Source of the DNA: Candidatus Pacearchaeota archaeon
GTDB taxonomy: Archaea > Nanobdellota > Nanobdellia > Pacearchaeales > GW2011-AR1
Direction: 5' to 3'
Assembly (NCBI GenBank): GCA_016186425.1
Contig: JACPLR010000017.1
Span: 1 to 47,348 of the forward strand
DNA: 47,348 nt
Part shown: one piece after another, positions 5,284 to 33,208 of the stretch
Position numbering within the stretch: position 1 is the stretch's first letter
Layout: each line of letters begins with the position of its first letter
Position numbers and translations under genes: made by a program
Notes under the pieces: model-generated
What the model saw: only the letters and a program-made list of their open reading frames with translations
The model's database searches: none
Told to the model about the DNA's origin: nothing

Positions 5284-5982
5284 TCAACGCACCCCACGAA
5301 CCCCACTGTCGAAATGAAGGAACCAGTTGCTGCCATTAAGCTCAGACCTGTTGTCAAGCCTGTTGAACCACAACTGACTAGCATGATCTCCAATTTTATC
5401 AGTATATTCTTGTTTATCTAATTTAATAGAGATATCCTTAATTTCAAATCTAGAATTTAATAAAAAATCTCCATAATTTTGAGCTCTTTTACTTTTTTCA
5501 GCATCTGTTCCTTTTTCTCCTCCAAAAAACCAAAGCCCGTATTTATCAGAACCTAAAGAATCTGTAGGCATTTTTATGAGGCCACCTTTATCTAAATCAG
5601 AGTTTTTAACTTTTAATCCTTCTTCTCTTCCTTTTTCAATATCTTCTTTTTCTAAACTAGTATATTCTCCTGTTTTATGAGCTTCAGTTGCTTCTCTCGG
5701 ATGCAAGTATGGCAATCCTGTTCTTAAAAGACGTGTATTGTCTCTTCTAAGATATAAAGGCCCTTCTTTAACCCAATTGCCATTATTAGAGCAAAAAGCA
5801 TTTTCTCCTTCCTGAATTCTCAATCTAGCATTTTCGTCTGCAGAAGGAATATAAAATCCTTCAATTTCTATTAACTCTTTTCCTGCATCAAAAGGAGCTT
5901 CATAACATATAGAAGCTAAAGTAATAACTCTTGGAATTACTTGATCTACTAATTTATATTGAGTTTGAGTTGCTGTTTCCAT
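5284..5982 (-). CDS. Probable diversity-generating retroelement target (variable) protein
   Basis: A 232-residue protein with no signal peptide. The first ~195 codons use the AT-rich codons of the genome. The last ~30 codons (about 5287-5376) switch abruptly to AAC, GAC, TTC, AGG, GGC and AGC and encode a W/N/R/D-rich segment ending SGVRGVR. The end is a G/C-rich block followed by the hairpin at 5263-5280. A C-terminal segment rich in AAC codons, a G/C-only end and a GC hairpin a few bases past the stop is the layout of DGR variable regions, and proteins ending in RLDNRS...GVRGVR are familiar to me from DPANN/CPR genomes, where DGRs are common. The C terminus may form a C-type-lectin-like ligand-binding fold. 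No reverse transcriptase or template repeat is in the window, so it would be a remote target. Confidence 0.6.
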   Translation of the reverse strand: METATQTQYKLVDQVIPRVITLASICYEAPFDAGKELIEIEGFYIPSADENARLRIQEGENAFCSNNGNWVKEGPLYLRRDNTRLLRTGLPYLHPREATEAHKTGEYTSLEKEDIEKGREEGLKVKNSDLDKGGLIKMPTDSLGSDKYGLWFFGGEKGTDAEKSKRAQNYGDFLLNSRFEIKDISIKLDKQEYTDKIGDHASQLWFNRLDNRSELNGSNWFLHFDSGVRGVR

Positions 5983-6101
5983 GCTTTCTTGCAGATTTTT
6001 AATTATTTAAACTTTTCCTTAATTTTTAACTTCTTAATGGTAACAATAAAAAGATTTATAAATAGGCTTTTGTTGTGAGAAAAAGGAGAAAAAATAAGAA
6101 A

Positions 6102-6476
6102 ATGGAAAGCAGAACACAAAATAATCCGGGAGAAGAAATCAAAACAAATTATCCTATAGATTTTTCTAGAGTGAAAGTTGGAGATAGTGTAACTTTACAT
6201 GGCTTAACTCATAGATTTGAAGGTTTGATATATGATTCAGCTTTAAGCATGCCTTATATTGAAACATCAAGAAAAACAAAGCATGGAACTGAAAGATATC
6301 TTTTAAAAATAGATGGTGATGAAATTAGAATCTTGGCTTATGATGAACGAGTTGTTAGAGGAGAAAGAGGAGATTCTGTTACAGATAGAAATTTAATGAT
6401 TGGTCTAGAATTCACAAACTTATTAAACCAAATTCCAACTACTTTTATATTCAGCCAAGAAGGAGGAGAGAGATAA
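6102..6476 (+). CDS. Hypothetical protein, 124 aa
   Basis: Not recognised. A KVGDSVTLHGLTHRFEG stretch (about residues 22-38) followed by alternating strands suggests a small beta-barrel. I chose ATG 6102 over the GTG 6075 because a TTTATAAA box (6055-6062) puts transcription start near 6083 and an AAGGAG-like site lies between them. It is the first gene of a plus-strand run leading one after another into the ABC adaptor (6647), and is probably co-transcribed with it. The next gene begins 1 base after its stop. Function unknown. Confidence 0.6.
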   Translation: MESRTQNNPGEEIKTNYPIDFSRVKVGDSVTLHGLTHRFEGLIYDSALSMPYIETSRKTKHGTERYLLKIDGDEIRILAYDERVVRGERGDSVTDRNLMIGLEFTNLLNQIPTTFIFSQEGGER

Positions 6477-16676: not shown

Positions 16677-16685
16677 TCAGTGTAT

Positions 16686-16769
16686 GCGGGAATGTCAGAG
16701 CGGTCAAATGAACCACGTTAAGGCCGTGGTGGCTTAGTGCCTGCGAAGGTTCGAATCCTTCTTCCCGCA
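16686..16769 (+). tRNA. tRNA-Leu, class II, anticodon AAG (A34)
   Basis: Acceptor GCGGGAA (16686-16692) pairs perfectly with TTCCCGC (16762-16768), with discriminator A; CCA is not encoded. The D arm has TCA/TGA, the anticodon stem CCACG/CGTGG encloses the 7-base loop TTAAGGC, and a variable arm with GGC/GCC and T arm GAAGG-TTCGAAT-CCTTC follow. The long variable arm and A discriminator identify leucine. With T33 in place the anticodon is AAG, reading CUU. Archaea normally use G34 here (GAG) and lack A34 tRNAs, so this is notable. No intron is present. It lies between the rpo3 and L18e genes. Confidence 0.9.
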
Positions 16770-16774
16770 TACTT

Positions 16775-23068: not shown

Positions 23069-23581
23069 ATGAAAAAAGACAGATTTTTAGCTTTATTTAT
23101 ATTATTTTTATTAATGATTATTATTTTGGTAACTATTTACATTTATTTTAATAATTTTAAACAGCAAACACCTGTTCAAGATGTTCAAACAGCTGAAAAT
23201 ATTAAACAGACGTGTTTTAAACAGGCAAACATAAAAATAAACAAGTGTTTTAGTGTTGAGGTTGCACAAACAGCTGTTGAAAGAGAGAAAGGATTGATGT
23301 TTAGAGAAAAATTAGATAGTGATAAAGGCCTGTTATTCATATTTCCAAGGGCAGAAAAATATGGATTCTGGATGAAAAATACACTTATTGCTTTAGATAT
23401 AATCTGGATTGATGAAAATAAAACAATAGTTTATATAAAAGAAAACGCTTTGCCTTGTAAAGAAGAAAAATGTGACGTTTATTATCCAAATAAAAAAGCT
23501 TTATATGTTCTTGAGGTAAATGGTGGTTTATCTGAAGAGAATAATTTAAGTGTTGGAGAGATTGTGGAGTTTAGAAATTAA
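23069..23581 (+). CDS. Membrane-anchored DUF192 protein
   Basis: A 170-residue protein: N-terminal membrane anchor (about 5-27), a linker (about 30-55), and a DUF192 domain recognised by EREKGLMFREKL, GLLFIFP and YGFWMKNTLIALDIIWID, ending VLEVNGG...VGEIVEF. The family is widespread and structurally known but of uncertain function. I chose ATG 23069 because the earlier ATG at 23021 lies where the promoter should be and would add residues before the anchor. The linker is unusual: its DNA is packed with AAACAG half-sites (23159-23278) like those around and inside the gene at 27231. Confidence 0.85.
   Translation: MKKDRFLALFILFLLMIIILVTIYIYFNNFKQQTPVQDVQTAENIKQTCFKQANIKINKCFSVEVAQTAVEREKGLMFREKLDSDKGLLFIFPRAEKYGFWMKNTLIALDIIWIDENKTIVYIKENALPCKEEKCDVYYPNKKALYVLEVNGGLSEENNLSVGEIVEFRN
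23159..23278. repeat. Cluster of AAACAG(C/G)TGTT-type sites inside the DUF192 gene
   Basis: Within 120 bases: AAACAG (23159), AAACACCTGTT (23166), AAACAGCTGAA (23187), AAACAG (23204), AAACAGG (23219), AAACAAGTGTTT (23239) and AAACAGCTGTT (23268). The same sequence is repeated upstream of and inside the coiled-coil/winged-helix gene at 27231-27878. Confidence 0.6.
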
Positions 23582-24590: not shown

Positions 24591-25352
24591 TTATTTTCCA
24601 AGTTTTGCCTGAACTTTATTAAAAAGCTCTTCTGAGAGAATAGCTTCATGCTGGCCTTTACTTTCCTGATTTGCAAACTTAACATATCCTAAGTAAGTCT
24701 TATTTTGAAGTAATTTTTTTAAACCAGCTGTTGTAAAAGAATATTTTTTAGCTAACTGAGTTAAACTAATGTGGCTATTTAAAAATTCCTTAAAGATTTC
24801 TTCAATTTCTTTTGAGGTTTCGGTGGGCATCAACTCTTTATTTACTAATTTATATCCTCTTGGAGCTTTTGTGATAAACCCTCCTTCTCTTGCTTTTCTT
24901 TCCATTCCAAACTTAGTTCTGTCTCCAATTATATTTCTTTCAAACTCTGCAAAAGCAGAGATTATATGAAACATTAACTTGCCAGAAGCAGAAGCTGTTT
25001 CAATTTTATCCTGCAACGAAATAAAATCTATTCCCCAATCCTTAAGTTTGTCTATTGTTAAAATTAAATCTTTTAAACTTCTTGAAAACCTATCTAATTT
25101 GTAAATAAATATTGCCTGAAATTTCCTCTGTTCAGCATCCCTAAGTAAATTAGTCATCTCAGGTCTTTTGAGGTCTTTGGCTGATTTACCTTCATCTCTA
25201 TAAATTTTATAGACTTCATAGCCTAATGCTTTAGCATAATTACTCATTGCATCTTCTTGGGCATCTAAAGAAAATCCGTGCTGGGCTTGGTCTTGAGTTG
25301 AAACTCTGACATAAATTGCTGCTAGTGGTCTAGCTTGATTATTTTGAACCAT
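24591..25352 (-). CDS. Serine recombinase (resolvase N-terminal plus Recombinase domain)
   Basis: Site-specific DNA recombinase using a serine nucleophile. The 253-residue protein has the resolvase catalytic domain (about 11-150): YVRVSTQDQ with the nucleophilic Ser, FIYKLDRFSRS with catalytic Arg residues, and FAEFERNIIGDRTKFG. A PF07508-like domain follows (about 165-252; APRGYKLV and LLQNKTYLGYVKF). It lacks the zinc-ribbon and coiled-coil of full large serine integrases (450+ residues), so it is a short version. Upstream is a palindromic operator. It could drive inversion or excision of the accessory segment to its right. Confidence 0.9.
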   Translation of the reverse strand: MVQNNQARPLAAIYVRVSTQDQAQHGFSLDAQEDAMSNYAKALGYEVYKIYRDEGKSAKDLKRPEMTNLLRDAEQRKFQAIFIYKLDRFSRSLKDLILTIDKLKDWGIDFISLQDKIETASASGKLMFHIISAFAEFERNIIGDRTKFGMERKAREGGFITKAPRGYKLVNKELMPTETSKEIEEIFKEFLNSHISLTQLAKKYSFTTAGLKKLLQNKTYLGYVKFANQESKGQHEAILSEELFNKVQAKLGK

Positions 25353-26933: not shown

Positions 26934-27027
26934 AATATATAATAGTAAATTTTATTTTTAAATTAAATGATTAAGGGCTATAGGGATATTTTTATTAGAT
27001 AAAATGGGCTCTTTTTAAATGAAAAAT

Positions 27028-27185
27028 GGCTGTTTATGGTAGTTTTTACTTCTCTATTTTTATCGACGGATATTGGCTGTTTATGGGTGTTTAAACAGCT
27101 GTTTATTGCAAATGGTATGGTGTTTAAAATGCAAAAATAGCTGTTTATTGGTGTTTTTTATAGTTTTTTATGGTGTTTTTTGTTA
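27028..27185. repeat. Upstream iterons with CTGTTTA/AAACAG half-sites
   Basis: GGCTGTTTATGG at 27028 and 27075; GGTGTTTAAACAGCTGTTTA starting 27086, which contains the perfect palindrome AAACAGCTGTTT; GGTGTTTAAAA at 27119; AGCTGTTTATTGGTGTTTTT at 27139; GGTGTTTTTTG at 27172. They lie directly upstream of ATG 27231 and overlap the likely promoter, so they are candidate operators or iterons for the encoded protein. Confidence 0.65.
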
Positions 27186-27230
27186 AAAAAACAAAACATT
27201 TAAATACCTCTTCCGTATATAAATAATAGA

Positions 27231-27878
27231 ATGTTTAATTGGCTATTTAATCATAAGAAAAAAGATGAAGTAGAAGAGGTAAAGAAAGAGGTAAGAGGTT
27301 CATTTGACCATGTTAAAACTGACATTAATAAAATTAGCAAGTGGGTTAACCACTTAAACAACCAAGATATTTCTTTAAACACCCGTTTAGATGATGTTAA
27401 ACATGATATATCGACGATAAAAAATGAATTTGAACAAATGAAAGAAGTTATTTCAATGCTTAATGAAGGGGTATCTAAACAGGTGTTTAAAACAGCCAAG
27501 CCTGTTTATCGTAAACAAACAGCTGTTGAAGGTGTCCAAACAGCTGTCCAAACAGCTGTCCAAACAGGTAAAAACAATGATTTTTTAGGAATCTCAAATT
27601 TATCTGTAACTGAAAAAGCAATTCTTTGGGTGTTAATAAATAATGAATTAAAATTAAGTTATGATGATTTAGCTGCAATGCTTGGAAAAACGAGATCAAC
27701 AATAAGGGGTCAGATAAATAGCATAAAACAGAAAAGTGATGGTTTAATAGAAGAGTATGTTGAAGGTAATGGAAAAAAAAGAGTTTACATACCTAATGAA
27801 ATAAAAGAAAAAATATTGAAAAATGTGAAAGTGAGAGTAGATAAAGGAAGTAAAAGAACGAGGAAAGAGAAAGAATAA
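27231..27878 (+). CDS. Coiled-coil/winged-helix DNA-binding protein with self-encoded iterons
   Basis: A 215-residue protein with three parts: a basic/hydrophobic N terminus and coiled coil (about 12-80, heptad-like VKTDINKI...LDDVKHDISTIKNEFEQMK), a linker rich in QTAV repeats (about 85-115), and a winged helix-turn-helix (about 122-190, LSVTEKAILWVLINNELKLS then LAAMLGKTRSTIRGQIN), with a basic tail. The linker DNA (27477-27568) consists of the same AAACAGCTGT sites that lie upstream. The architecture and spacing are shared with the convergent gene at 28320. It may be an origin-proximal replication, partition or nucleoid factor that binds its own gene; a plasmid-type initiator is an alternative. 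Confidence 0.75.
   Translation: MFNWLFNHKKKDEVEEVKKEVRGSFDHVKTDINKISKWVNHLNNQDISLNTRLDDVKHDISTIKNEFEQMKEVISMLNEGVSKQVFKTAKPVYRKQTAVEGVQTAVQTAVQTGKNNDFLGISNLSVTEKAILWVLINNELKLSYDDLAAMLGKTRSTIRGQINSIKQKSDGLIEEYVEGNGKKRVYIPNEIKEKILKNVKVRVDKGSKRTRKEKE
27477..27568. repeat. Intragenic AAACAGCTGT repeat cluster
   Basis: AAACAGGTGTTTAAAACAG (27477), CCTGTTTA (27500), then three CAAACAGCTGT units and a final CAAACAGG between 27515 and 27568, spaced 12 bases apart at the end. They encode the QTAV-rich linker and match the upstream iterons. Confidence 0.7.
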
Positions 27879-28300
27879 AGTAGTGGTTAATATAAAGGTT
27901 TAAAGAGATAAGGAGAGATTTGTAGGGGATAAAATAAGCTTAAAAAACGAAAAGTGAGAGTTAAAATATCATAAAAACCTGAGAAAAAGGAGTAAAAAGC
28001 AAAGGATAAGTGAAAAACAAAAAATAAATAGGGGAAAGTGAGGGTAAAAATACTGAAAATGTTTAATATTAATTAAAATAAAAATCTTTAATGTAGTAAA
28101 GTGAGAATAAATAGATAAAAATAAAAAAAGTTTGAAGAAGAATATATTAAAAAATAAAGGAAAATGAGAAAAAAGTAGGGGATAAAAAGAGAAAAAGGAG
28201 GCACTAATGTAAGGGATAAAATAATAAGGGAAAATAAAATTAAGAGAAAAAGTTGGGAAAATTAGATGGTTAATAGACTTATTCGGTGTAGCTGTTAATT
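27879..28300. repeat. Purine-rich intergenic region with repeated motifs between convergent winged-helix genes
   Basis: The 441-base gap is strongly purine-biased on the plus strand. GTAGGGGATAAAA occurs at 27922 and 28175, the variant GTAAGGGATAAAA at 28209, and AAAGTGAG at 27951, 28035 and 28098, each followed by a (G/A)(G/A)T-AAAA tail. No open frame of useful length. It could be a binding array, an RNA, or a decayed gene. Confidence 0.5.
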
Positions 28301-28319
28301 GAGAATCTATTTTGATGAA

Positions 28320-28997
28320 TTATATCTCTCTAAGCTTAATTAAAGTGTCTAAAGAAGCTAATTTCTTAAGATCTTGAGATATATGGAGAAGCACTTTCTT
28401 GTTATTAACCTTTTCTTTCTCAAGAGGAACACCTTTAGCTATAATCCTTTGAATGTAGTCCCTAATTGAACTTTCAGAAAGATTTAGATGAGAGGATAGT
28501 AAATGATAATCTACGAGAAATCCCTGGTCTTCTAGCTGATAAATAAAAGAGAAAACAAGCATTTCCTGGTTGGTAAGATGTTTGAATTGAAGGATTGTCT
28601 CTTTTTTAAGAGCGTCTAATTGGCTTAAAATTAGGGATGGATTAGAAGAATAGATGTGTCTGTCTGTCTGTTGGTTTGTCTGTCTGTCTGTCGAAACCCC
28701 CTTATTTCCTATGGAATTTAAGGTATTTTGGCTTTTTAAGCCTTGAAAATGGTATTTATCTGTCGAAGTGTCTGTCGAATTACCAGAATGTGTCTGATTT
28801 ATCTGTCGAAGTGTCTGTTGGTCTGTCTGTCTAAAATCATGATTTTTTTCTGAAATATTATAATTATTTTTAACAGAAAAAAGAGCTAGAATTGAGTTTT
28901 GGATTTCTCCAAGTTCTTTATTTATATTTGAAATTTCCTGTTTAAGAAGAGTTATATCCTCTTTAACTTTCTGAAATGCTTCTTTAACCTGATCCAT
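28320..28997 (-). CDS. Coiled-coil/winged-helix DNA-binding protein, second paralogue
   Basis: A 225-residue protein with the same plan as 27231-27878: coiled coil (about 1-40, VKEDITLLKQEISNINKEL), a low-complexity linker of TDRQT/TDQQT repeats (about 55-115), and a C-terminal winged helix (about 140-210, LTNQEMLVFSFIYQLEDQG then LSESSIRDYIQRIIAKG). The linker DNA is made of CGACAGACA-type repeats, different from the AAACAG sites of the first gene. No such sites appear upstream of its start. Likely another site-specific DNA-binding factor of the same family with different specificity; function inferred only from architecture and the nearby origin. Confidence 0.72.
   Translation of the reverse strand: MDQVKEAFQKVKEDITLLKQEISNINKELGEIQNSILALFSVKNNYNISEKNHDFRQTDQQTLRQINQTHSGNSTDTSTDKYHFQGLKSQNTLNSIGNKGVSTDRQTNQQTDRHIYSSNPSLILSQLDALKKETILQFKHLTNQEMLVFSFIYQLEDQGFLVDYHLLSSHLNLSESSIRDYIQRIIAKGVPLEKEKVNNKKVLLHISQDLKKLASLDTLIKLREI
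28655..28835. repeat. Intragenic CGACAGACA repeat cluster
   Basis: Read on the minus (coding) strand: four TTCGACAGA units, two AACAGACA units and runs of AGACAGAC. Some are arranged as AACAGACACTTCGACAGATA and its near copy, giving the TDRQT/STDTSTDK-like linker. Only this gene carries them in the parts of the window I compared. Confidence 0.65.
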
Positions 28998-31891: not shown

Positions 31892-33208
31892 ATGCCAAAT
31901 ATATTGCCAATATCAAAGACATCTGATTCAAAAATATCTAATATCCCAAATAATCCAAATAAGCCTCAGGAAGGGATGAATAAAATTTTTGATTCTTTTA
32001 TGCAGAATAGTATTTTTGAAAACAAAGCAGTTTTGCAGACAAGCTATACTCCTGAAACAATTCCCCATAGGGATGAGCAAATAGGGCAGATTGCCAGCAT
32101 ATTAGCCCCTGCATTAAGAGGTGAGAGAACAAGCAATTTATTTGTTTATGGCAAGACTGGAAGCGGAAAAACTATTTCTGTCCAATGTGTAAGAGATGAG
32201 TTATTAAAAAGGCAAGAAAATAATAAAAATAAACTAATAATCCAATATATTAATTGCAAGCTGAAAAAGGTTTCAGATACAGAATATAGGATTTTAGCCG
32301 AGTTAATAAAAAAACTCGGAGGAAATGTTCCAGCTACTGGCCTTCCGACAGACCAGGTTTACAATAAATTTCTTGAGTTGATTGATAATGATAAAAAATT
32401 GGTTATTCTTATTTTCGATGAAATTGATCATGCAGTTAATAAAATTTCAGACAATTTTCTTTATAATTTAACAAGATTAAATTCAGAACTTTCTAAAAGC
32501 CAGATAAGTGTTGTTGGAATAAGCAATAATCTGACTTTTTTAGATGACCTTGACCCAAGGGTCAGGAGCTCTTTAAGTGAAGAAGAGGTTGTTTTTCCAC
32601 CTTATAACGCTTTAGAGTTACAAGATATTTTAAAGAAAAGGGCAGATATAGCTTTTAAAAATGGTGTCTTGGAAGAGGGAGTTATAGCAAAATGCGCTGC
32701 TTTTGCTGCAAGAGAGCATGGGGATGCAAGAAGGGCCTTAGATTTGCTGAGAATAGCTGGCGAGATTGCTGAAAGAAATAATTTTCTAAAGGTAACTTTA
32801 AAAGACATAGATAGTGCTAATGAGAAAATAGAGAAAGACAAAATTTTAGATATTGTTAAAACAGAGCCAAAGCAATTTCAGCTTGTTCTTCTTGGAATTA
32901 TGGAAATTCTTGAAAAAAAGGAAAAAAGCGAAAAAACTTTGTTTGATAGCGAAAAAACAAAGCAAAGCGAGGTTTTTACAGGAGATATTTATAATGCCTA
33001 TCAAATATTATGTGAGAAAACAAAGACAGAGGTCTTAACTCAAAGAAGAGTTTCAGATATTTTATCTGAATTTGACATGATGGGAATAATCAACAGCACC
33101 GTTATCTCCAAAGGAAGGCAAGGAAGAACCAGAAAAATAAAGTTAGCTGTTCCGAAGAATCTTACAGGCAAGGTAAAAAATATTTTATATGAATCTCTTG
33201 AAATGTGA
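31892..33208 (+). CDS. orc1/cdc6: Origin recognition protein Orc1/Cdc6
   Basis: Archaeal initiator, an AAA+ ATPase that binds ORB sites and loads MCM. The 438-residue protein has Walker A GKTGSGKT (87-94), Walker B LIFDEIDH (about 171-178), sensor 1 in SVVGISNN, sensor 2 GDARRALDLLR (about 274-284) and a C-terminal winged helix (about 330-435) ending RKIKLAVPK. The N-terminal extension (about 1-40) is unstructured-looking. It follows the candidate origin directly and precedes PolD small subunit. A purine-rich AGAGGAAAAAGGGGAA precedes ATG. Confidence 0.95.
   Translation: MPNILPISKTSDSKISNIPNNPNKPQEGMNKIFDSFMQNSIFENKAVLQTSYTPETIPHRDEQIGQIASILAPALRGERTSNLFVYGKTGSGKTISVQCVRDELLKRQENNKNKLIIQYINCKLKKVSDTEYRILAELIKKLGGNVPATGLPTDQVYNKFLELIDNDKKLVILIFDEIDHAVNKISDNFLYNLTRLNSELSKSQISVVGISNNLTFLDDLDPRVRSSLSEEEVVFPPYNALELQDILKKRADIAFKNGVLEEGVIAKCAAFAAREHGDARRALDLLRIAGEIAERNNFLKVTLKDIDSANEKIEKDKILDIVKTEPKQFQLVLLGIMEILEKKEKSEKTLFDSEKTKQSEVFTGDIYNAYQILCEKTKTEVLTQRRVSDILSEFDMMGIINSTVISKGRQGRTRKIKLAVPKNLTGKVKNILYESLEM

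Follow-up and report, generated by a model that had tools for sequence, protein, structure and literature searches.

The window analysed here is the whole 47,348-nt stretch of DNA, a 47 kb contig within a 0.87 Mb draft genome; relatives that carry names are mostly Candidatus Pacearchaeota and Nanoarchaeota, DPANN archaea. It contains two genes, P1 (27231-27878, plus strand, 215 aa) and P2 (28320-28997, minus strand, 225 aa), which lie tail to tail, 441 nt apart. The two genes are paralogous and, judging by their translations, both proteins have a coiled coil at the N-terminus and a winged helix at the C-terminus, joined by a low-complexity linker, as an earlier, sequence-only reading had described for these two open reading frames. 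In P1 the predicted coiled coil covers approximately residues 1-80, the repeat-encoded linker 81-118 and the winged helix 122-200; the corresponding minus-strand segments of P2 are predicted at 28863-28997, about 28581-28862 and about 28383-28580. Searches with P1 and P2 of Pfam, NCBIfam, PHROGs and PDB sequences reported nothing beyond sub-threshold or generic HTH and coiled-coil matches, and the match to HTH_11 was weak and under the Pfam cut-off.

Homologues of P1 were found in 45 of 55 relatives and homologues of both genes in about 44, leaving 10 relatives with no P1 match and 11 with no P2 match. In three of the genomes, which were checked (G003, G005 and G009), the genes are missing because the contig ends beside orc1 on the P2 side. 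The merged set, drawn from Pacearchaeales, comprised 103 distinct P1 loci, 99 of them with P2, and 98 of these 99 showed the same convergent order; the median gap between the two genes was 279 nt. P2 is spread wider than P1 and was found in 152 of 280 genomes across the class. Loci L225, L227 and L241 come from records labelled Patescibacteria or Methanothrix, yet carry the P1 locus; L225 and L241, both on short contigs, and L227 are likely binning errors. Adjoining P2 at L283 is a reading frame (5736-6428, minus strand) in which, by eye, a NucS/DUF91-like N-terminus is apparently fused to a P2-type winged helix.

About 3 kb from the locus the window carries an orc1/cdc6 gene (about 31892-33208, plus strand; Pfam Cdc6_lid and Cdc6_C). 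This gene is essentially single copy, and in all 44 loci where it was found it shared one strand and one side of the locus, that of P2, at a distance of 1.3-9.4 kb; a further 25 loci, with at least 4.5 kb of sequence on that side, showed no such gene in reach. The annotated neighbours include, besides orc1, a phosphoesterase and the small subunit of PolD. They include no ParA, SegA or TubZ-like gene and no motor ATPase or GTPase, which speaks against the partition system that had been suggested for this gene pair.

Palindrome arrays and winged-helix types of P1

The motif repeated in the P1 linker is a palindrome, AAACA[GC][GC]TGT. Within the P1 coding sequence it forms an array at 27374-27567 (AAACACCCGTTT, AAACAGGTGTTT and AAACAGCTGTTG, followed by AAACAGCTGTCC repeats), which is read in two frames, as KQVF and as QTAV. 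Comparison with the linkers of relatives showed that AAA CAG GTG TTT (KQVF) and CAA ACA GCT GTT (QTAV) are two readings, shifted in frame, of a single palindrome, and the palindrome occurred in more than one reading frame in 53 of 100 P1 genes. A second array precedes the gene, at 27024-27150 (two copies of GGCTGTTTATGG, one each of GTTTAAACAGCTGTTTA and AATAGCTGTTTA). Palindrome density was 30/kb in the linker, 6.8/kb over the 300 nt that precede P1, where an array had also been reported before, and approximately 0.05-0.1/kb in the far flanks. Over 98 loci, 198 matches fell within these 300 nt and only 4 in the next 700 nt; the reversed control word of the motif occurred once. The upstream palindromes are likely operator and origin sites. 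Outside the locus there were three P1-type motifs, at 23166-23278 of the window and at G000:C20:21529-21540. The pair at 23166 and 23268 recurs in G001 (C14:56692 and 56785) at similar spacing and distance, hinting that P1 may have a second target.

The palindrome follows the type of the winged helix. Where the recognition helix of P1 is of STIRGQIN type, the gene has AAACA-SS-TGTTT; where it is of VTVRRHIND type, the gene has another palindrome, TGAACGTTCA / GTTCATGAAC, whose ten-mers are present in 20-39 copies in P1 and are absent from the flanks; a third type (VRSTLSEY) has neither palindrome. Among 134 genes, 46 of which were not sorted by helix pattern and were counted by motif only, there was no crossed case of helix type and motif, and the co-variation of winged helix and motif that was expected from the sequence-only reading thus holds for P1. 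In the winged-helix tree the second P1 type forms one clade (100/100), so this perfect association reflects only a small number of independent events. Both P1 types occur in families f50 and f51, which suggests that gene and sites have been exchanged as one module. In the window, P1 would be predicted to bind AAACAGCTGTTT, its palindrome.

An ORB-like element in P2 and its surroundings

The origin recognition box, or ORB, is the site of Orc1/Cdc6 in archaea. Within the coding sequence of P2, at 28695-28716 on the minus strand, there is an ORB-like element, TTCCATAGGAAATAAGGGGGTT, that agrees at 17 of 20 positions with the common archaeal ORB of Ori-Finder 2, TCCA[CG]T[TG]GAAA[TC][GA]AAGGGGT (PMC4164010), and this is the sole ORB match in the host genome. 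All 99 P2 genes have the element, 89 in a loose form and the other 10 with 1-4 mismatches to the 22-nt ORB; 10 P2 genes match the Ori-Finder 2 motif exactly. Outside P2, the loose ORB was matched three times in 1.15 Mb, one of these matches being in an unassigned P2. The DNA TTCCANNGGAAANNNNGGGGTT, which encodes the near-invariant P2 peptide S-x-G-N-x-G-V, gave 41 matches in 37 of 55 whole genomes, nearly all of them in P2, and its reversed control gave none. Most loci have a single ORB and four have two (L092, L234, L235 and L245). In L234, L235 and L245 the two ORBs are neighbours within P2 and are read in different frames, so that the peptide from the second is unrelated to that from the first (TVPQEIKGLK next to STGNK). 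The most distant P2 homologues, in the basal loci L290-L295, are short and have neither linker nor ORB. Beside the P1/P2-like genes of L291, L292 and L294 we noted 5-6 copies of AAGTGAG on one strand; since these basal members are without an in-gene ORB, the AAGTGAG element may predate it.

Right after the ORB, at 28655-28694 on the minus strand, comes a short-period tandem repeat, (GACA)n in the window. In other families the unit is of TCAA, TTCA, CAAA, GCAC or CAAC type and the peptide follows the DNA; indeed, the long-linker P2 genes of these families keep the ORB while the adjoining repeat changes. Dispersed copies of TTCGACAGA / TTCGACAGACA are found at 28754-28837, also on the minus strand, and the TTCGACAGA-type word was seen in P2 linkers only, on the P2 strand, at 12 per kb. 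Read along the ORB strand, the order of ORB, G-string, tandem repeat and CTCACTT copies is constant, whichever gene order a family has. The proposal that each linker carries sites of its own protein is supported for P1, where protein type and motif co-vary, but is too simple for P2, whose repeat is an Orc1-type ORB with a family-variable tetranucleotide array.

Could the P2 ORB be a titration or regulatory site for Orc1, with the active origin elsewhere near orc1? An ORB cluster downstream of Haloarcula oriC2 offers a precedent (PMC4010727), and in a few genomes a further ORB directly precedes orc1. In the two such cases examined, G044 and G035, it lies approximately 0.2 kb upstream of the gene, a position that would fit Orc1 as the reader of the ORB. 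The P2 ORB is, however, a single box and not a cluster, it stands together with three other conserved element classes, and in most genomes, the host included, it is the sole match, which leaves no other ORB-bearing origin there. We therefore regard titration as unlikely.

A strand-specific element, AAAAGTGAGAGTTA, marks the P1-P2 intergenic region and the 3′ end of P1. It was counted 292 times on the plus strand, that of P1, and once on the minus strand, at 97 of 98 loci, against 80 occurrences in 835 kb of flanks. In the window, four copies of AAAAGTGAG(A/G)(G/A)T lie at 27828, 27950, 28035 and 28098 on the plus strand (span 27828-28108), in the GA-rich 3′ end of P1 and the intergenic region, and this stretch is a candidate unwinding or helicase-loading region. 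Near the 3′ end of P2 there is a further element, TTATTCGGT (28279-28287, plus strand), which was present at 42 of 98 loci, in most cases at 20-50 nt from the stop codon of P2. The intergenic region is only mildly AT-rich, with a GC content of 0.276 versus about 0.31. An RNA element was considered as well and rejected, as Rfam gave no match.

These data also bear on whether P1 and P2 might simply be autoregulated transcription factors with intragenic operators, at a locus that is no origin. The P1 sites in its own promoter and gene, and their co-variation with the winged helix, would be expected of such factors. P2, in contrast, has almost no copies of its motif upstream of itself (0.04 per kb) and has the Orc1-type ORB instead, the intergenic DNA between the convergent 3′ ends is conserved though no promoter is needed there, and the single-copy orc1 is always beside the locus where it is in reach. 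An operator function alone thus seems unlikely.

Selection on the linker DNA

To see how far the encoded protein accounts for the repeats, we used a shuffle test, in which synonymous codons were permuted inside each gene, and a comparison of four-fold sites with identical amino acids in pairs whose proteins share at least 50% identity. Since related sequences are not independent, the figures are quoted as contrasts and not as probabilities: the 100 P1 genes contain AAACA[CG][CG]TGT 296 times, compared with 74±6 in the shuffles (maximum 89 in 200 shuffles), ACAGACAGAC in P2 331 times against 38±7, and the ORB 84 times against 0.5, while four-fold sites of P1 differed by 0.19 within the linker and 0.50 within the winged helix, and by 0.04 in the ORB segment of P2 versus 0.57 in its winged helix. 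In amino acids, the P1 linker is as variable as the P1 winged helix. Silent codon choice in the ORB is fixed, in a table anchored on the peptide and not on the ORB pattern: Ser is TCC in 93 of 96 cases (11% elsewhere), Gly is GGG in 94 of 96 (17% elsewhere) and Asp is GAC in 85 of 85 (28% elsewhere).

Selection thus acts on the linkers at the level of the DNA itself. The repeats that had been noticed in both linkers are real and far above chance, and the shuffles, the two reading frames and the frozen four-fold sites all bear out the expectation that linker DNA is kept while residues drift. The linkers are low-complexity peptides, and it might be argued that low complexity of the protein alone, or chance, generated the repeats; the same three lines of evidence rule this out, and we give it practically no credence.

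A putative chromosomal origin inside two genes

The elements described above are kept as DNA and are concentrated at one place, and the P2 element fits the ORB consensus of Orc1/Cdc6; the locus is linked to orc1, its elements have a set polarity, and the winged helix and palindrome of P1 co-vary. From these sequence features we infer protein binding and origin activity at the locus, and consider it probable that these 2 kb are the chromosomal replication origin, whose cis elements lie inside the P1 and P2 genes. The link between the gene pair and an origin that was made from the sequence alone is thereby supported. That reading had put oriC some 3 kb away; the feature at this distance is orc1/cdc6, and the origin is probably at the locus itself.

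In the mechanism that we propose, Orc1 would bind the ORB inside P2 with a polarity towards the intergenic region, and the tandem repeat after the ORB, together with the GA-rich intergenic DNA and its AAAAGTGAGAGTTA copies, would serve strand opening or MCM loading. P1 would sit as a dimer on the palindromes in its own promoter and gene, where promoter binding could amount to autoregulation or repression, and its coiled coil would join the palindrome sites, and probably P2 as well, into an origin complex. P2 would be a likely partner at the same site. The DNA elements would dictate the linker peptide, which is tolerated as their by-product, so that, as we propose, protein and sites may form one self-contained, exchangeable module.

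In the oriC1 origins studied so far, at least two ORBs, usually an inverted pair, flank an AT-rich region. Like the oriC1-type origins of Pyrococcus, Sulfolobus and haloarchaea, the locus has an ORB with a TCCA..GGAAA core and a G-string, orc1/cdc6 nearby and AT-rich neighbouring DNA. Of the features of archaeal ORB-type origins, it thus shows both the ORB consensus and the adjacent orc1/cdc6, but not the usual several ORBs flanking an AT-rich element. It further differs from them in that the ORB is in a protein-coding gene and is usually a single box, with a tetranucleotide repeat after it and two dedicated winged-helix genes around it. The archaeal origins described so far are intergenic (PMC4164010), and scanners of intergenic ORBs such as Ori-Finder 2 would miss the locus because its ORB is inside a coding sequence. 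Proteins other than Orc1 are bound at archaeal origins in Sulfolobus, namely in the systems WhiP/oriC3 and UBP/ucm (PMC12141716); these differ in having no in-gene sites, and UBP, a nucleoid protein of 111 aa, has over 300 sites.

The closest parallels in design come from plasmids and phages. In pSK41 Rep, of the RepA_N plasmids, four Rep boxes are central in rep and the DNA there encodes a dispensable linker (PMC5703833), which resembles the repeated sites in linker-encoding DNA reported here; pSK41 differs in being a bacterial plasmid with an N-terminal DNA-binding domain, one gene and no ORB. The origin of bacteriophage lambda, ori-lambda, is likewise in the gene, in the middle of the initiator gene O (PMC3985674), but lambda is a phage with an unrelated protein and one gene. 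In repABC plasmids oriV is inside repC, and silent mutations there abolish replication (PMC3155836); that oriV is an A+T-rich stretch without iterons, on a bacterial plasmid. No homology of P1 or P2 to RepA_N or lambda O was found in Pfam (for P1, among the best 25 of 44 matches), NCBIfam, PHROGs or PDB sequences. In our literature search, which had most subscription papers outside its reach, we found no archaeal chromosomal origin inside a coding sequence and no DPANN origin. The earlier statement that no such system has been described holds for archaeal chromosomes in the searchable literature, but lambda O and pSK41 Rep are known cases of an origin in the linker segment of an initiator gene.

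As an origin within an initiator gene is typical of plasmids and phages, and as the P1 types are patchy across families, we also considered an integrated plasmid or virus module for replication or partition. The conservation of the locus beside orc1 across order and class, the lack of any relative in 2.9 million viral contigs and the lack of a parA-like partner among the annotated neighbours make this very unlikely. A chromosomal origin, our preferred reading, would mean that a cellular chromosome apparently has its origin within genes, a design familiar from plasmids and phages. These archaea, a large group of tiny symbionts, make up much of archaeal diversity and are hardly cultured. For them the locus provides an exact, conserved 2 kb candidate origin target across a class and points to two protein families, so far unstudied, as candidates for origin binding. 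It also supplies a natural series with a fixed ORB but a changing adjoining repeat and a changing site of the partner protein.

Strand skew gave a mixed picture. In the near-closed genome G182 strand-corrected skew breaks between 297 and 302 kb, around the locus at 299.5 kb; another break, at approximately 45-50 kb, is nearly opposite. In G017 the sign changes at the locus in TA skew only, and the genome-wide skew is noisy. No break was seen at the locus in G044 and G117, where the skew has nearly one sign all round. At four-fold sites, strand-corrected skew had one sign in 20 of 20 stretches of G117:C1 (L316-L335) for TA, and in all measurable ones for GC, and in 19 of 20 stretches of G044:C1 (L126-L145) for GC.

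Tentatively, we can picture a general initiation design for this DPANN class, in which the genes of two winged-helix origin proteins are themselves the origin, an ORB precedes an NNCA-type tandem repeat of 3-4 nt that acts like the bacterial DnaA-trio in directing the initiator or the helicase to a single strand, and P1 and its sites are exchanged between lineages as a module. As part of this tentative design, the uniform asymmetry in G117 and G044 would allow largely one-directional replication of the chromosome; our search of the literature on one-directional replication in DPANN returned nothing on point.

Two further features of the window are recorded here. A serine recombinase with Resolvase and Recombinase domains is encoded at 24591-25352 on the minus strand, approximately 2 kb to the left of the locus, and ARAGORN predicted a tRNA-Leu at 16685-16770 on the plus strand with the anticodon AAG, which is unusual in archaea.
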